NCBI GenBank assembly: GCA_029932675.1
Contig: JAOZPP010000034.1
Span: 1-31,919 of the forward strand
Length of the DNA stretch: 31,919 nt
Source of the DNA: a bacterium
GTDB taxonomy: Bacteria; SM23-81; DAOVCL01
Direction: 5' to 3'
The translations under genes were made by a program, and so were the position numbers. Below, in pieces: positions 21,186-28,497 of the stretch. Numbering within the stretch: the first letter of the stretch is position 1; the number at the start of each line of letters is the position of its first letter. The notes below the pieces were generated by a model. It searched no databases. It had not been told where the DNA came from and saw nothing but the letters and a program-made list of their open reading frames with translations.

Positions 21186-21450
21186 GAGCTAAATTCTTAC
21201 ATATCAGCTTTGGTTCAACTACAAGAGGAAGAATAGGAACAGGGGGAGGAAGACGCCACTGGAGATATTTGGGGAGCTACCCCATAAAGGGATATCCCCT
21301 GAGGTCTTTAATCTTGCTCCCGTAATCGTTGACCAGCTTCTGCCTGCCTGGGCCACGGCAGACAGGTCTGTTTGGATAGAAAAGAGAGAATCTATTCAGG
21401 GTGGTTACCATGTGGGGTCATCAGCCAACTTGAGGAGAAAAAATGCTTGA
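21186..21450 (+). pseudogene. Degenerate transposase/integrase C-terminal remnant
   Basis: Two adjoining frames read like the end of an rve-type integrase/transposase. One frame gives 'RRELNSYISAL' (from about 21180); it then continues, shifted by one frame at about 21210, as WFNYKRKNRNRGRKTPLEIF and on through 'APVIVDQLL' and 'GGYHVGSS' to a TGA at 21448-21450. The 'YNxxRxHxxLGxKTPxE' pattern is typical of the C-terminal part of DDE integrases. No N-terminal or catalytic part is visible upstream, so this is a decayed fragment. An imperfect palindrome (CCTGCCTG ... CAGACAGG, 21343-21366) interrupts it and is probably a small repeat insertion. Confidence 0.55.
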
Positions 21451-21475
21451 CTTTCTGCAAGGGATTTGGTATATT
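21447..21475 (+). promoter_or_regulatory. Sigma-70-type promoter of the small-secreted-protein / activator operon
   Basis: TTGACT (21447-21452) and TATATT (21470-21475) are 17 nt apart; each matches the consensus at five of six bases. The predicted start is near 21482. The leader (about 280 nt) contains a 12-codon signal-peptide-like ORF, a palindromic repeat and a potential branched structure before the gene at 21761. The -35 overlaps the end of the transposase remnant. Confidence 0.75.
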
Positions 21476-21525: not shown

Positions 21526-21564
21526 ATGAAGAAGTTAGTTATGATCATCTTGACCATATTATGA
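21526..21564 (+). pseudogene. Truncated signal-peptide ORF (possible decayed copy of the next gene)
   Basis: An ATG behind GAGGT encodes MKKLVMIILTIL and stops at a TGA formed where the palindromic repeat begins. It resembles the start of the protein at 21761 (MVKKLLVGLLILVIVL), and the upstream sequences are also alike (TGAGGTAAGG versus TGAGGTGATG). It may be a copy cut by repeat insertion, or a leader peptide. Confidence 0.35.
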
Positions 21565-21588
21565 GGTGGCAGAACCCCGATTCTGCTA
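21564..21588. repeat. Palindromic repeat, degraded copy
   Basis: AGGTGGCAGAACC-CC-GATTCTGCTACT matches the two complete hairpins at 25209-25236 and 25370-25397, including the flanking ATG before it, but its right arm has decayed. Its presence at three intergenic places marks a dispersed small palindromic element. Confidence 0.75.
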
Positions 21589-21594
21589 CTATGG

Positions 21595-21760: not shown

Positions 21761-22072
21761 ATGGTAAAAAAACTTTTGGTTGGCCTGTTGATTTTGGTGA
21801 TTGTGCTTGGCCCAGTGGGTGGCTTTTGGGCAAAGCCAACATCGGCTAATACGGGACCTAAGATATTACTCTGCACCGCCGAGCCATGGCATGATGAGGA
21901 ATGGAACAAGGCAACTCCTCCTCCGAGTTCAGATCAAGATTCTACATACTCTTTTTTATCCAACTCTATCCAGCCCAAACCACAAAACCTTCGGCAGAAA
22001 CCCCAGAAATCATTCTGGCTCCGGCTACAGTTTTTCCTCTTTAATCTCAAGCTGCTATTTGAGGGTAAGTAG
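21761..22072 (+). CDS. Small secreted protein (103 aa) upstream of the sigma-54 activator
   Basis: The ATG is preceded by GAGGTGAT about 7-9 nt upstream. The product has a textbook signal peptide (MVKKLLVGLLILVIVLGPVGGFWA), a likely cleavage site near A24 or A29, a mature part of about 75 residues with one cysteine (C38), a polar Pro/Ser/Gln-rich middle, and a hydrophobic/basic amphipathic end (SFWLRLQFFLFNLKLLFEGK). I do not recognise the family. The stop is 16 nt before the regulator's ATG, so both are on one transcript. Position next to a TPR-bearing regulator makes a signalling or sensed-precursor role possible (inference). Another frame across this stretch is only an upstream extension of the regulator and is rejected. 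Confidence 0.7.
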   Translation: MVKKLLVGLLILVIVLGPVGGFWAKPTSANTGPKILLCTAEPWHDEEWNKATPPPSSDQDSTYSFLSNSIQPKPQNLRQKPQKSFWLRLQFFLFNLKLLFEGK

Positions 22073-22088
22073 AGGTGGGGAGGATAAA

Positions 22089-24881
22089 ATGAAGACTGGA
22101 ACAAAGTTACGGGAGGAAAGGACGGCTCTGAGGGAGTTAAAGGAGAAGGTGGAAGCCCTTCTTAGGGAGAGAAAGTATGCAAAGGTTGTTGAGGAGATAG
22201 GGGCTTTCTCCAAGGGGTATACTCGAGGAGGAAATGATGTGGAGTGGGCGGAACTTCAGGTGAGGTTGGCCTTTGCCCAGGAGAAGCTGGGTAGGTATGA
22301 TAGGCATACAGCAGAGGCCGCATATGAGATCTTGAAACTTACTGATAGGCGGAAGGAGATAGGTGCAATTGAGAGGATATTAGGTAGGGAGTATTTGGCA
22401 TTGGGTGAGACAAAAACAGCTCTCAGATATTTGAGGAATAGCCTCACAGAGTTCGACACAATAGGGAATAACAAGGGGAAGCTGGAAACACTTAATGCTT
22501 TGGGTAGAGCCTGCTTTATGACTGGTCGCATAAAGGAGGCAATTGAGCATCTCACGGAGGCCCTTGATCTTTGCCATCAGAATAAGGGGGATAAGGGCCA
22601 GGAGGCGATGGTCAGGGGAAATCTGGGCACTGTCTATCGCAGAGTAGGTGATTGGACATTAGCTTCTGATATGCTGAGAAAAAGTTTGAATCTCTATGAG
22701 CAGATAGGTGATAGACTGGAAATTGTCAAGGGACTGATTGCCCTTGCTCGGTTGCTCATTATGCAGAGGAATTTTGATGAAGCCGAGAGGCTATTACAGA
22801 GGGCAGAGGGTTTGAACCAGCTCTACCCCAGGGAGAGGGCAATGGTTTGGGAATCCCTTGGTGATCTGGCCGTCGAGAGGGGGGAGCTTGAGAAGGCGGA
22901 GGGGTATTATCAGAGGACACTGGAGATAGGCAGAAAGATAGCCCCTCGGGGTGACCTGATCAATCAGGTGCAGCGCAGGAGAGCGGAGTTGCTCATCGCC
23001 GAGGGGAAGGACCTCGCACAGGCCTCGGAATGTATCCAGGAAGCTTTGAGAGTCTCCCAATCTTTGGGTGATAAATTTGAGGAAGGCTGTTGTTATCGCA
23101 CAATGGGGAGACTCGTTCAGGCCAAAGGCGACTCTAAGGCTGCAGAGGCCAACTTTGAGAAGGCGGTTGAGGTCTTGCGCTCCCTTGAGGACAGGTTTGA
23201 GTTGGCGAATACTCTTTTGGCTCAGGGGGAACTTACCCGGAAGGTTGAGCTTTTGCGGGGAGCCCAGAGGCTCTTTTCCCAAATCCAAGGGGTAGAGTTC
23301 TACCAGGCTTTGGCCTTGCTTCAGATTGCTAAGGTGGAGCCTTCCTTCAAGAAAGCGATAGAGACCTTGGGGGAGGCGGAGAAGCTGCTGCAGGCTAAGG
23401 GAGAAACTGAGAAGCTCAAGGAGGTGGAAAACCTAAAGGTTGAGCTTAACCAAAGGCTGAAGAGGTTTCCGTCCAGGAAGTATGAGTTTTTGCAGGGATT
23501 GCCATCAGATGATTTGGGGAAGGTCTTTGGCCAGGTGATTGAGGTTGTAGGGGCCGACAGGGGCTTTGTGGCCTACGCTGTAGACGGAGATAAGAAGATG
23601 ATGGTGGGGGCAAGCCATAACCTTGGGGAGGGGGAAGTCAAGGGGCTTCTCTCCCTGTTGGCAGACAGGGATGGCTTTGAGGTGGGCAGTCCCTTTATCC
23701 TCTATGATAGTTCCCTGGATGAGCGGTTCTCCTCCACAGGGGCCTATAGCATAATGGTAACACCATTGGGGAGTAGGGAGAGGATAGATGGTTACCTCTA
23801 TGTGGATCGGCAGAGGGGCAAGGAGCCTTTTTTGGAGAAGGAGTTGGATCTCTTCTATCTTCTCTCCGAGAGGGTAGCCAAGGCAATAGCTGAGCAGAGG
23901 CAGAGGGAGTTGGAGAGGCAATTAGCGGTCTTGAAGAAGGAATCAGATATACTCACCCGTAGTCCCGAGATGCTAAAGGTGCTGGAGATGCTCAAATTAG
24001 TCCAGGATAGTGAAGCTCCTGTGCTCTTGATGGGGGAGACGGGAACGGGGAAGGACTTCCTGGCGCGGAAGATTCATCAAGGGAGTGCCCGGAGGGATGC
24101 AGACTTTATTGAGGTGCACTGCGGGGCGATCCCCAAGGAACTGGCGGAGTCAGAGCTATTTGGCCATGAGAGGGGAGCCTTTACCGGGGCAGTCTCCCGG
24201 AAGCTGGGACGGGTTGAGCTTGCCGAGGGAGGAACTCTCTTTCTCAACGAGGTAGGGGAACTACCAGAATCCACTCAGGTGAAGCTGTTGAGGTTCTTGG
24301 ACAGCAACGAGTTTGAGAGGGTAGGGGGCAACAAGACCCTCAAGGTAGACACCAGAATAATAGCGGCCACCAATAGGGATTTGAAGACAGCAATGGAACG
24401 GGGGACATTTCGCAGGGACCTCTACTACAGGCTGAATGTGTTTTGCATAGAGTTACCCCCGTTGAGGGCAAGGAAGGAGGACATTCTTCTCTTGGCTCAT
24501 CATTTTATGAAACTCTATGGGGACAAGTATGAGAAGGAAGTTCAGGGGATTGCTCCTCAGATTTTGCGGGCATTGATGGAATATGACTGGCCAGGGAACA
24601 TAAGGGAGTTGGAGAATGCAATTGAGACGATGGTTATAGCTACCAGGGATGGGGAGGAGATTGGCGCAGAGTTCCTGCCAAAGCAGATAATGGAGACTGG
24701 ACCCAAAGGGAATGACATACAATCTTCGCCCAGAGTTAAGCAGACCTTGAAGGAGATGGAGAAGAGACTCATCCGAGAAACTTTGAGGAGAACAAATGGT
24801 TCAAAATATGAGGCTTCTAAGCTATTGGGAATAGGCAAAAGCACTTTGTACCGGAAGGTCAAAGAATATGGACTAAATTAG
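22089..24881 (+). CDS. Sigma-54-dependent activator with TPR and GAF sensor domains
   Basis: The product is 930 residues from the ATG at 22089, chosen because GGGGAGG lies about 6 nt upstream; the open frame extends further 5' but across the secreted-protein gene. TPR repeats fill about residues 10-440, a GAF domain about 470-600 ('[22 protein letters not shown]'), a coiled linker follows, then the AAA+ domain about 620-850: Walker A GETGTGKD (649-656), sigma-54-contacting GAFTGA (696-701), Walker B LFLNE with N720 where Asp is usual, 'ATNRDL', '[12 protein letters not shown]', and a Fis-type helix-turn-helix at the end ('[19 protein letters not shown]'). There is no response-regulator receiver, so the input is a ligand or protein sensed by TPR/GAF. 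A terminator and a consensus -24/-12 promoter follow. Confidence 0.95.
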
Positions 24882-24891
24882 TGATTCTTGT

Positions 24892-24969
24892 TTTTGAGAA
24901 TTGTCCCATTTTGAGAGAGATATTGTATCCTATTTTTTAATAGTAACTTAGGTATTTCGTAATTCTCAA
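24892..24969 (+). promoter_or_regulatory. Candidate upstream activator sites for the sigma-54 promoter
   Basis: TTTTGAGA occurs twice 17 nt apart (24892-24899, 24909-24916), and an inverted copy lies at 24961-24969 (AATTCTCAA, exactly complementary to TTGAGAATT at 24894-24902). They are about 105-185 nt upstream of the -24/-12 promoter, the normal distance for enhancer-binding sites. The link to the activator is inference. Confidence 0.35.
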
Positions 24970-25037
24970 TAAAGGGATTTCTTCCTCTTATGATTCGGTG
25001 AGGGCAAAGAAGGTTGGTTTTATAAGATTTTGTTTTT

Positions 25038-25072
25038 AAGCCACTTAGGAGAAAATTCTAAGTGGCTTTTTT
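25038..25072 (+). terminator. Intrinsic terminator of the activator operon
   Basis: A perfect 11-bp stem (AAGCCACTTAG / CTAAGTGGCTT) with a 9-nt loop is followed directly by a T-run. It lies about 155 nt after the activator stop and only 2 nt before the sigma-54 promoter, so it insulates that promoter from read-through. Confidence 0.9.
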
Positions 25073-25074
25073 AT

Positions 25075-25090
25075 TGGCACGCTTTTTGCT
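25075..25090 (+). promoter_or_regulatory. Consensus sigma-54 (-24/-12) promoter
   Basis: TGGCAC-GCTTT-TTGCT matches the -24/-12 consensus (TGGCAC-N5-TTGCW) at every conserved position, with GG at 25076-25077 and GC at 25088-25089. Transcription would start near 25101 and run plus-ward into the 57-aa gene at 25461 and the propeller genes. The adjacent upstream gene encodes a sigma-54 activator, which makes autolocal control likely. Confidence 0.9.
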
Positions 25091-25162
25091 GTGTGAAATG
25101 AGTGCAGGCTGAGGTCTTTGCTTTCTTCCCCAGTCTGCTTGCTTTCCTCCAAAGGAAGGGGT

Positions 25163-25192
25163 GGTGGGACAGGGTAGGTGCCCTGTCCCACC
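25163..25192. repeat. Perfect hairpin repeat (GGTGGGACAGGG type)
   Basis: Arms GGTGGGACAGGG and CCCTGTCCCACC (12 bp) flank a TAGGTG loop. It is the first of six hairpins between the sigma-54 promoter and the 57-aa gene. There is no T-tract, so it is not an obvious terminator. Confidence 0.8.
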
Positions 25193-25208
25193 CATAAATG
25201 AGGTAATG

Positions 25209-25272
25209 AGGTGGCAGAACCCCGGTTCTGCCACCTATCCCCCGCCTCCCGTCAGAATTGGGGTTCTGACGG
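25209..25272. repeat. Double-hairpin repeat unit, copy 1
   Basis: This holds AGGTGGCAGAACC-CC-GGTTCTGCCACCT (25209-25236, 13-bp perfect stem), a C-rich spacer, then CCGTCAGAA-TTGGGG-TTCTGACGG (25249-25272, 9-bp stem). The same order with a similar spacer recurs at 25370-25431, so the two hairpins form one repeat unit. Confidence 0.85.
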
Positions 25273-25301
25273 TTCGATAGAGAGAAGGCAGTTCCCCGTG
25301 T

Positions 25302-25323
25302 CGTCAGGGCTCCTGCCCTGACG
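25302..25323. repeat. Perfect hairpin repeat (CGTCAGGGC type)
   Basis: CGTCAGGGC-TCCT-GCCCTGACG is a 9-bp perfect stem lying between the two double-hairpin units. It shares the CGTCAG beginning with the second hairpin of each unit. Confidence 0.75.
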
Positions 25324-25369
25324 GAGGTAATTCCTTTTGGGGACGCGGATACACGCAGATGGTTAAATG

Positions 25370-25431
25370 AGGTGGCAGAACCCTGGTTCTGCCACCTACC
25401 TCCCGCCTGCCGTCAGAATCGGAGATCTGAC
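25370..25431. repeat. Double-hairpin repeat unit, copy 2
   Basis: AGGTGGCAGAACC-CT-GGTTCTGCCACCT (25370-25397, 13-bp stem) is followed by a C-rich spacer and a weaker GTCAGA...TCTGAC hairpin (25412-25431). It matches copy 1 except for a few substitutions, several in the loops, so the stems appear conserved. Confidence 0.85.
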
Positions 25432-25460
25432 TGCTCGGTGAAGGAGGAGGAGTTGGCCTT

Positions 25461-25634
25461 ATGAAGTCCGATGACGATAAAAAGCCAAAGCCAGAATTAA
25501 GGCTGGAGCGTAAGCTGATTAAGCCACCAAAGAAGGAGAAAAAGAAGGGGGTGTGGCAGAGGATCTTAGAGGTGTTGGAGGAGGAGGTAAGAAGAGGGAG
25601 GGAAGAGGAGAGCAGGGACCCCAGTGACTGGTGA
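25461..25634 (+). CDS. Small, highly charged protein (57 aa) under the sigma-54 promoter
   Basis: The ATG follows a strong AAGGAGGAGGAG about 9 nt upstream. The 57-residue product begins MKSDDDKKPKPELRLERK, continues with a lysine/proline-rich stretch (IKPPKKEKKKG) and an amphipathic helix (VWQRILEVLEEEVRRG), and ends DPSDW. It has no signal peptide and more than half of its residues are charged. I do not recognise it. It is the first coding region after the -24/-12 promoter, about 360 nt downstream, the intervening leader being filled with hairpin repeats. It could be a regulator, chaperone-like or peptide precursor; none of these can be shown from sequence. Confidence 0.6.
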   Translation: MKSDDDKKPKPELRLERKLIKPPKKEKKKGVWQRILEVLEEEVRRGREEESRDPSDW

Positions 25635-25780: not shown

Positions 25781-26175
25781 ATGAGAAGGGAGAGGATCAA
25801 CCACTTTCTGGCAATGTTTTTGTTGGGGTTCTCGCTGACATTGCTGGGGCAATCTGGGCAGGCCCAGGAGGTGCTCTGGACGAGCCCTTATTGGGGAGGG
25901 GATGTGGCTACAGACAGTGCAGAGAATGTGTTACTTACGGGTGGAAAACTTAGTCCGGATGGGGACAGCCTTTGGATGAGAAGTCTAAGTGGGATGACTG
26001 CTTATGGAGTTGCCGCCGATCCCTGGGGCAATGTGATAGTAACTGGTTACATATACACCGATACGAGTTCTCTTGAGGACTACTGCACGGTGAAGTATAA
26101 CCCCAATGGCGACACCCTCTGGACAAGAACCTTCGATTCTGGTGATTGGGATGAGGCCCACGGCGTTGCCACCGA
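25781..26175 (+). repeat. 395-bp direct repeat, copy 1 (partner 27133-27527)
   Basis: Reading both stretches base by base shows no difference from the start codon to position 26175 / 27527 (offset 1352). Divergence begins abruptly. A second, nearly identical block runs 26249-26461 against about 27598-27811, with only a few substitutions. Confidence 0.9.
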
Positions 26176-27094
26176 CCCCTGGGGCAATATCATCGTAGCA
26201 GGATGGATTCCCGGCTATGGTCCTTGTGGTTGTGGTGATTACTGCACCATAAAGTATGATCCCAATGGGAATATGCTCTGGAAGAGAATCTTTGACTGGA
26301 GGTGGGAGGACTTTGCCCACGATGTAGCTGTTGACGGGGAGGGCAATGTGATAGTGACTGGACAATCAGACAACAACATAAACTGGGACTGGTGCACGGT
26401 GAAGTATGGCCCGGATGGGGATACCCTATGGATAAGGAGGGTTGATGTGGGCATTGACGACTTTCCTTATGGTGTGGCTACCGATCCCTGGGACAATGTG
26501 ATAGTGGTGGGGAGGGTAGATATTGGAGGGGGACATGGTAGGGCCTTTGCCATAAAGTATGGTCCAAATGGGGATACTCTCTGGACAAGACTCTATGATT
26601 ACATTGGGGGGTTTCGTGATGTGGCTACAGACATTGCAGGTAATGTGATATTATTATTTAGTGATGTTATGGGGTGTAACCCCGATGGGGACACCCTCTG
26701 GACGAGACATTTTGGGCGGTCAGCCAGGGTTACTACTGACCTATCCGGCAATATAATAGTAACAGGTACTCACACCACAAAGTATAAAGGCTATGCTGGA
26801 GTGGAGAAGGTTGGTGATTATTATTTCCCAAAGGTATTCTCGTTATCTCAGAACTACCCTAATCCGTTTAATCCAAAAACCCAGATCAATTATACCTTGC
26901 CAAGAGACAGTCAGGTTAGGCTTGAGGTTTACAACCTTCTTGGCCAAAGGGTGGCCACTTTGGTGGATGGCAGGCAAACCAGGGGGTATAAGTCCGTCAC
27001 TTGGGATGCAAGCTCTCTTTCCTCTGGCGTCTACCTTTACCGCCTTCAGGCGGGAGATTACACTGAAACCAAGAAGATGGTTTTGATTAAGTGA
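25781..27094 (+). CDS. Secreted seven-bladed beta-propeller protein with sorting domain, copy A
   Basis: The 437-residue product has a signal peptide ([28 protein letters not shown]) and then SBBP-type repeats. Seven 'VATDxxGNVIVTG'-like strands can be counted, each linked to a 'DGDTLW' turn, so one seven-bladed propeller is predicted. A complete C-terminal sorting domain follows (NYPNPFNP ... '[14 protein letters not shown]' ... '[14 protein letters not shown]' ... 'KKMVLIK'), without the repetitive DNA insert seen in the other sorting domains of the window. AAGGAGGGAG supports the ATG. Its first 395 bp are identical to copy B. It is probably carried across the outer membrane and kept at the surface; ligand unknown. 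Confidence 0.88.
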
Positions 27095-27132
27095 GTAGAT
27101 AGAGGGAGGTAGCAAAGACAAGGAGGGAAAGG

Positions 27133-27527
27133 ATGAGAAGGGAGAGGATCAACCACTTTCTGGCAATGTTTTTGTTGGGGTTCTCGCTGACATTGCTGGG
27201 GCAATCTGGGCAGGCCCAGGAGGTGCTCTGGACGAGCCCTTATTGGGGAGGGGATGTGGCTACAGACAGTGCAGAGAATGTGTTACTTACGGGTGGAAAA
27301 CTTAGTCCGGATGGGGACAGCCTTTGGATGAGAAGTCTAAGTGGGATGACTGCTTATGGAGTTGCCGCCGATCCCTGGGGCAATGTGATAGTAACTGGTT
27401 ACATATACACCGATACGAGTTCTCTTGAGGACTACTGCACGGTGAAGTATAACCCCAATGGCGACACCCTCTGGACAAGAACCTTCGATTCTGGTGATTG
27501 GGATGAGGCCCACGGCGTTGCCACCGA
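27133..27527 (+). repeat. 395-bp direct repeat, copy 2 (partner 25781-26175)
   Basis: This is the second copy of the identical block. It covers the signal peptide and the first two blades plus part of blade 3 of the second propeller gene. The sequence upstream of both start codons is only loosely similar beyond the ribosome binding site. Confidence 0.9.
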
Positions 27528-28497
27528 TTCCGAGGGCAATGTGATAGTGACAGGATGGATATGCACTCCTTACTCAGGCATCTTTAATTACTGCACCATA
27601 AAGTATGATCCCAATGGGAATATGCTTTGGAAGAGAATCTTTGACTGGAGGTGGGAGGACTTTGCCCAGGATGTGGCTGTTGACGGGGAGGGCAATGTGA
27701 TAGTGACTGGATATTCGGACAACAACATAAACTGGGACTGGTGCACGGTGAAGTATGGCCCAGATGGGGATACCCTATGGATAAGGAGGGTTGATGTGGG
27801 CATTGACGACTGGCCCTGGGGTGTAGCCACCGATCCCTGGGACAATGTGATAGTGGCTGGTGAAGTACACATAGGAGGATATCAAAAAAGAGGATACGTT
27901 GTAAAGTATGGTCCAAAAGGGGATACTCTCTGGGCAAGACTCTATGATGACATTGGGGGAATGTTTTATGATGTGGCTACAGATACTGCAGGCAATGTGA
28001 TATTGAAATCTAGGCTAAAGCTTATAAAGTGCGAACCCAACGGTGATACCCTCTGGACAATATCCACTCCTGGTTACTTCGGAAGTGTTACAACTGATCT
28101 CTCAGGTAACATAATAGTAACAAATCGGTCTGGGACCACAAAGTATAGGGGCTATGCTGGAGTTGAGGAGGCTGGTGATTATTATTTCCCAAAGGTATTC
28201 TCTCTCTCTCAGAACTACCCTAATCCGTTTAACGCAACCACCCTCATCCGCTACCACCTGTCCGCCGTCCGCGGTCGGCCGTCCGCCGTTACCCTTCGGG
28301 TTTACAACATCTTAGGAAAGGAAGTGGTAACCTTAGTAGACAGGATACAAGATACAGGAAGATACAGGGTCGTATGGGATGGGAAAGATAGCGGGGGAAG
28401 AGAAGTGGGTAGTGGCGTTTACTTTTATCAATTGAGGGTGCATATCCAGAAAGGGGGTGTATATCAAAAGACGAGGAAGTTGGTGCTGTTGAGGTAG
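27133..28497 (+). CDS. Secreted seven-bladed beta-propeller protein with sorting domain, copy B
   Basis: This 454-residue paralogue of copy A starts 38 nt after it, with AAGGAGGGA upstream. The signal peptide and blades to residue 131 are identical; blade 3's variable loop differs, blades 3-4 are almost identical again, and blades 5-7 diverge. Seven propeller strands can again be counted. The sorting domain (NYPNPFNA ... 'YNILGKEVVTLVD' ... 'GSGVYFYQL' ... 'RKLVLLR') carries a short GC-rich repetitive insert (28257-28300: repeats of the GTCCGCCG type) in the loop after its first strand. The stop is TAG. Function unknown; probably a surface protein with a swapped binding face relative to copy A. 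Confidence 0.88.
   Translation: MRRERINHFLAMFLLGFSLTLLGQSGQAQEVLWTSPYWGGDVATDSAENVLLTGGKLSPDGDSLWMRSLSGMTAYGVAADPWGNVIVTGYIYTDTSSLEDYCTVKYNPNGDTLWTRTFDSGDWDEAHGVATDSEGNVIVTGWICTPYSGIFNYCTIKYDPNGNMLWKRIFDWRWEDFAQDVAVDGEGNVIVTGYSDNNINWDWCTVKYGPDGDTLWIRRVDVGIDDWPWGVATDPWDNVIVAGEVHIGGYQKRGYVVKYGPKGDTLWARLYDDIGGMFYDVATDTAGNVILKSRLKLIKCEPNGDTLWTISTPGYFGSVTTDLSGNIIVTNRSGTTKYRGYAGVEEAGDYYFPKVFSLSQNYPNPFNATTLIRYHLSAVRGRPSAVTLRVYNILGKEVVTLVDRIQDTGRYRVVWDGKDSGGREVGSGVYFYQLRVHIQKGGVYQKTRKLVLLR

Follow-up and report, generated by a model that had tools for sequence, protein, structure and literature searches.

A small secreted protein paired with a TPR-GAF sigma-54 activator and a downstream -24/-12 promoter: a candidate sensory module in an uncultured bacterium related to Zixiibacteriota

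Results

Gene order at the locus

We analyzed a 31,919-nt stretch of DNA, hereafter the window (contig JAOZPP010000034.1, assembly GCA_029932675.1), from an uncultured bacterium related to Zixiibacteriota. Its genome, designated G000, comprises 3.03 Mb in 116 contigs and is 97% complete. The genes, domains and promoters of the window described below are on the forward strand. A gene for a small secreted protein of 103 amino acids (aa) (21761-22072) is separated by 16 nt from the ATG (22089) of a gene for a sigma-54 activator of 930 aa (22089-24881). An intrinsic-terminator-like hairpin with a T-run ends this two-gene unit (approximately 25038-25072), and most paralogous loci have similar hairpins before the promoter that follows. 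In the window, this promoter is the -24/-12 sequence TTGGCACGCTTTTTGCT (25074-25090), which a pattern search identified as the only zero-mismatch TGGCAC-N5-TTGCW site. Beyond it are a gene for a charged 57-aa protein that belongs to a small family (25461-25634), and two presumed target genes. Both encode exported beta-propeller-repeat proteins with SBBP domain matches; the first (25781-27094) ends in a C-terminal sorting domain of the type IX secretion system (T9SS) type and the second occupies positions 27133-28497. This arrangement had been outlined in a preliminary description made from the letters and open reading frames alone, and all of its parts were found again by domain matches and sequence, including the absence of a receiver domain from the activator in a domain search.

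The activator, assigned from its sequence, domain matches and a structure model, starts with a tetratricopeptide repeat (TPR) superhelix of 24 helices (about residues 1-460; 22089-23468). This is followed by a GAF domain (PF01590, residues 482-600; 23532-23888), an AAA+ sigma-54 interaction domain (Sigma54_activat, residues 622-787; 23952-24449) and a Fis-type helix-turn-helix (HTH) domain (HTH_8, PF02954, residues 886-927; 24744-24869). The match to PF00158 has an E value of 3.6e-67, and both the AAA lid and the GAFTGA motif (approximately 24174-24191) are present. Sigma-54 itself is encoded by one PF04552 gene each in G000 and in the same-genus genome G001. The AAA+ domain with GAFTGA, the Fis-type HTH and a -24/-12 target nearby are shared with bacterial enhancer-binding proteins of the NtrC family, including LuxO. 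What differs is the input, which here is a long TPR superhelix with a GAF domain, paired with a secreted protein and lacking a receiver.

Conservation of the gene pair

With the activator as the query, 13 TPR-GAF-sigma-54 relatives were found in the genome of origin, to which we refer by handles such as A10. A kinase-type sigma-54 fusion without a small gene (A14, contig C35) was excluded from this set. All 13 activators have a small signal-peptide gene of 103-122 aa directly upstream. The small protein was detected by homology at 12 of these loci; that of A10 was recognized by position and later by profile. One activator included in the count, A03 (contig C98), has a frame break and consists of two open reading frames (ORFs) of 691 and 286 aa with overlapping AAA+ sequence, as would be seen in a decayed copy or an assembly fault. 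The same pair is present at 5/5 loci checked (L099-L103) in two other metagenome-assembled genomes (MAGs), G001 and GMC4. The genomes G002 and G003 of the same phylum gave no match to the small protein, and their TPR matches sit in larger, different proteins.

The activators are mosaics, in that the nearest relatives differ between their TPR, GAF and AAA+ parts. All of these loci are on MAG contigs, where repeated genes are prone to misassembly. Since independent MAGs contain the pair, the pair itself is guarded against such an artefact, while the details of the mosaics are less so.

A search of 290 relatives, together with the five-genome phylum of one match, revealed full-length homologues of the activator in other lineages. 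A small signal-peptide ORF (70-114 aa) is located upstream in 19/19 of the outside-phylum homologues with upstream sequence, at -47 to +123 nt from the first start of the activator. Only 1/14 non-TPR sigma-54 activators examined as controls had such a gene (Fisher p ~2e-8); signal peptides were called by our own heuristic, alike for cases and controls, and the search window differed slightly. The preliminary description had proposed conservation of the small ORF beside homologous activators as a check, and the association held at 13/13 loci in the genome of origin, 5/5 in related MAGs and 19/19 outside the phylum. A -24/-12-like site is found downstream of 10/19 outside-phylum homologues with enough sequence versus 1/14 controls (p 0.009). 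By sequence, the gene behind this site encodes a sigma-70-family factor in at least three outside-phylum loci (G275a, G210 and G138), and such factors are often behind the site outside the phylum (loci L185, L187, L184 and L201-L203). A cascade from sigma-54 to sigma-70 is possible at these loci.

Properties of the small secreted proteins

The small proteins are built alike: the signal peptide comes first, an A-(E/W)-PW (or DPD) motif follows, and a loose linker then leads to the C-terminus, which is usually an aromatic-hydrophobic helix. They measure 102-122 aa within the genus and 70-114 aa in other lineages. In the 103-aa protein, the signal peptide spans about residues 1-29 and is followed by an EPWHD motif. 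Its AlphaFold2 (AF2) model has low overall confidence (63.5), showing a signal helix, disorder and a helix at residues 83-101 with a local predicted local distance difference test (pLDDT) score of 74-79. Our heuristic and the AF2 helix indicate a signal-peptide-like N-terminus with an AxA-type site, and plausible signal-peptidase sites (ASA/N, ALC/N) are conserved among the small proteins. None of them matched a Pfam or NCBIfam family. A PW/PD-type motif follows the signal peptide in 14/19 of the outside-phylum small proteins, compared with a rate of 10% in shuffled sequences.

The nonsynonymous substitution rate (dN) was well below the synonymous rate (dS) across the whole small gene in 10/10 pairs, at roughly a fifth to a half of dS in most. 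The small proteins are therefore real proteins under purifying selection. Their N-terminal parts are alike within each genome, while the C-terminal parts are shared with orthologues across genomes and differ among paralogues.

Covariation with the TPR domain and fold of the receptor

Similarity among the small proteins was compared with similarity among the different parts of their activators. The correlation was strongest with TPR residues 1-150 (Mantel rho 0.62, p 0.002) and weaker with TPR residues 151-300 (0.16) and 301-460 (0.35), the GAF domain (0.33), the AAA+ domain (-0.02) and the HTH (0.10). Covariation of the small protein with the TPR domain, another check raised in the preliminary description, was thus found and falls on the N-terminal repeats. 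It fits a pairing of ligand and receptor, for which it provides support and not proof.

The structure model of the TPR domain is confident, with a pLDDT of 89. In VIA-align, its best rows were Rap of phage Phi3T with its pheromone (Z 29.5) and NprR (Z 28.3), both over about 340-350 residues, with RapF and MalT close. A fair reading of the model is that the TPR domain is a peptide-binding type of superhelix and not a proven receptor of the RRNPP group. MalT, a STAND-type LuxR-HTH protein that senses maltotriose, likewise has a TPR ligand-sensor domain in a transcription activator; there is a match to PF17874, and MalT domain III is among the best structural matches. The protein described here differs from MalT in being a sigma-54 activator with a paired small protein.

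The downstream promoter and its presumed targets

Among the 12 activators with enough downstream sequence in the genome of origin, 11 are followed by a -24/-12 site, at a distance of 179-287 nt from the stop codon. These sites are strict at A01, A03-A08 and A10 (n = 8) and have one deviating position at A09, A11 and A12 (n = 3). At A02, a strict site is located at +467. Related loci have the site in 4/4 cases, 196-220 nt past the stop. The strict pattern TGGCAY-N5-TTGC occurs 40 times in the genome versus four times for a reversed control. Nine of the 40 strict sites fall within the 500 nt that follow a paired activator, against an expectation of about 0.04 by arithmetic from the genome counts; the suggestion that such motifs would be enriched downstream of these activators was therefore upheld. 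These results confirmed, at the level of sequence, that the small gene, the activator and the downstream promoter form a conserved module above chance.

Right after the -24/-12 site, at the predicted transcription start, is a conserved element that falls into four types. That of the window (25101-25168, with an approximate end) is of type 2, common to A03 and A12. The start of the 57-aa gene is about 360 nt beyond the predicted transcription start, with a long leader containing hairpins that resemble repetitive extragenic palindromes (REP) in between. In a DNA search, the leader element was found only at these activator loci, and its interpretation as a general element was rejected. The idea of a structured RNA was also dropped, since the 80-nt element matched no Rfam family at curated thresholds, with weak matches at chance level, and its predicted fold contains one compensatory pair of 25.

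After the site and the leader, most loci with enough contig have a 57-aa gene, exported proteins with a T9SS-type sorting domain, or both. The genome contains a gene for an SprA-like T9SS translocon, and a T9SS export route for the presumed targets is evident from their sequences. The N-terminal parts of the tandem propeller proteins (25781-28497) are near-identical and their C-terminal sorting domains are different. The 57-aa protein was considered as a mimic of the C-terminal helix of the small protein, with which it aligns in register; this was rejected at an hhalign probability of 0.1% and an E value of 0.41. At locus L220 (contig C11), a 57-aa protein and exported proteins are behind a sigma-70-like box, and no -24/-12 site or activator was found there. 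The 57-aa protein is hence not specific to the switch.

At A10 and its G001 orthologue (L051 and L102), the site is followed by a conserved stretch of about 75 nt, after which comes a hairpin with a T-run. A site of this type may make a stand-alone small RNA. The two loci presumably recall LuxO-qrr, in which an activator is beside a short terminated RNA.

Other features upstream of and within the locus

A sigma-70-like promoter, TTGACT-17 nt-TATATT (21447-21475), was read from the sequence and probably drives the small gene and the activator. Similar TTGAC and TATA boxes are upstream of several paralogous and G001 small genes. Between this promoter and the present small gene is the relic start of another small gene, MKKLVMIILTIL followed by a stop (21526-21564), identified by its likeness to an A04-type signal peptide in a comparison with the DNA upstream of A04. 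This A04-type relic is cut off beside a REP-like hairpin and suggests that the small gene was exchanged. REP-like palindromes, GAGGTGGCAGAACCCCGGTTCTGCCACC, are present in the window at 21564-21589, 25209-25236 and 25370-25397, and most paralogous loci have them too.

Discussion

We propose that the locus encodes a self-contained sensory module, a reading to which we give a probability of about 0.5. A single transcription unit would yield the cytosolic sigma-54 activator together with a small protein exported by Sec. The latter would act as a dedicated ligand for the activator encoded beside it, with the C-terminal hydrophobic helix as the part that most likely contacts the first few TPR repeats. 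We infer that binding alters the GAF/AAA+ engine, which would then either begin or cease to open the adjacent downstream -24/-12 promoter, and the state of this promoter would in turn set the output of exported surface proteins. The pool that is sensed would more likely be the precursor still inside the cell, as a measure of export status, than a peptide re-entering from outside.

Several observations weigh against this proposal. Physical linkage alone could yield the covariation, since the activator gene recombines and its TPR end borders the small gene. Identical 113-aa small proteins are encoded in front of A07 and A08 (L048 and L049), whose TPR domains are only 72% alike. The genus C-terminal profile matches two of the 19 outside-phylum small proteins clearly and two marginally, and the C-terminal helix is absent from some distant small proteins. 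No exported protein follows the -24/-12 site of A10 or of the orthologous G001 locus. As to the receptor, TPR folds resemble one another, so that APC, MalT and LGN tie with RRNPP proteins; the APC subunits do so in VIA-align, and Foldseek and a sequence profile both rank LGN/Pins highest for the TPR domain. The groove of LGN/Pins binds long peptides.

The preliminary description had likened the locus to RRNPP systems, and a related explanation is that the small protein is a peptide pheromone. It would be exported and cut, and its C-terminal peptide would re-enter to bind the TPR domain, forming an RRNPP-like quorum circuit on a sigma-54 activator. As in Rap-Phr, NprR-NprX, PlcR-PapR and AimR-AimP, the gene of a Sec-exported small protein adjoins that of a TPR regulator located in the cytosol, and many parallel pairs occur per genome, 13 in this case. 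Rap and NprR also give the best alignments to the TPR model. The locus-specific C-termini conserved between species point the same way. The published five-point RRNPP signature includes a propeptide of 10-100 aa, Sec export, a TPR receptor of 250-500 aa and adjacency (PMC10075063). Sec export (by heuristic), a TPR domain and adjacency are all found here, and the propeptide length is borderline at 103 aa. The receptor, however, has 930 aa with a GAF-AAA+-HTH sigma-54 output, the small gene is upstream, and the C-terminus of the small protein is a hydrophobic helix of about 20 residues, unlike short pheromones. RRNPP peptide signaling has been described as Gram-positive (Firmicutes) (PMC10075063), whereas the host here is of the Gram-negative FCB (Fibrobacterota-Chlorobiota-Bacteroidota) type, in which a pheromone would have to cross the outer membrane twice. 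The OppA-type importer family SBP_bac_5 (PF00496) had no match in G000 or in G001 (90% complete); the control matched 11/14 genomes, and other importers were not tested. The likeness to RRNPP therefore stands for adjacency and for alignment with Rap and NprR and fails for strict membership. Because the receptor is far too long and no OppA-type protein was found, we do not file the system as RRNPP; at most, it works like one. We consider the pheromone explanation doubtful. Since both genus genomes lacked a match to OppA-type proteins and the targets themselves are exported, sensing inside the cell is favored, and of the two alternatives in the preliminary description, a sensor of export state is slightly preferred over one of a re-imported peptide.

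The small ORF could instead act as an arrest leader similar to SecM, stalling the ribosome under slow export and controlling translation of the activator, with the TPR domain sensing something else. Of the four criteria used to search for such leaders (PMC10987492), the locus matches three, with its signal sequence, spacer of more than 30 residues, conserved C-terminal end and short distance to the next gene. A signal-bearing small ORF directly upstream, with a variable spacer and a conserved C-terminal end, is also the layout of SecM, VemP and MifM (PMC10987492). However, the downstream gene encodes a transcription activator and is not a sec or yidC gene. Among known arrest motifs, nothing like RAPP occurs near the end of any member except for a chance-like QGGP in A10. 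The ribosome-binding site (RBS) region of the activator is not systematically paired, with a mean unpaired value of 0.50 versus 0.36 for that of the small gene (12 loci), and this is not a pattern of RBS sequestration. The C-termini of paralogues are widely different, and the spacing between the two genes varies from about -47 to +123 nt among phyla. An arrest leader is unlikely on these grounds.

Another option is that the small protein remains in the periplasm or on the inner membrane, where it would tether or inhibit the activator like other membrane-bound anti-activators. Its hydrophobic helices at both the N- and the C-terminus would suit such an envelope sensor, but the plausible signal-peptidase sites are conserved and the C-terminal helix is short for a membrane span, which makes this quite improbable. 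Finally, it is very unlikely that the small gene is an ordinary operon neighbor, an unrelated exported protein carried along by duplication with no link in signaling: the loci are clearly duplicated and recombined and linkage alone would give covariation, but simple duplication is inadequate because the pair persists in distant phyla despite very little sequence likeness between the small proteins.

Our preferred reading remains that the TPR end of the activator has a dedicated ligand in the neighboring small protein. By extension, and tentatively, circuits of this peptide-sensing kind may be widespread among Gram-negative phyla, most of them uncultured. In such circuits, a TPR-GAF-sigma-54 activator would take its ligand from a secreted small protein, and the 13 insulated, recombining versions in one genome would control different surface proteins. 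A search of the open-access literature, which leaves most subscription papers outside, yielded no account of a sigma-54 activator with a secreted small protein as its partner. The occurrence of such pairs in several bacterial lineages suggests an undescribed way for bacteria to sense their own exported protein. If the pairing works as proposed, it would be a second way for a cell to sense, from within, a secreted protein of its own making, one linked to sigma-54 and present in lineages that have no cultured members. With the small protein and the TPR end varying together, the 13 natural variants of this genome would provide a ready set for tests of specificity.

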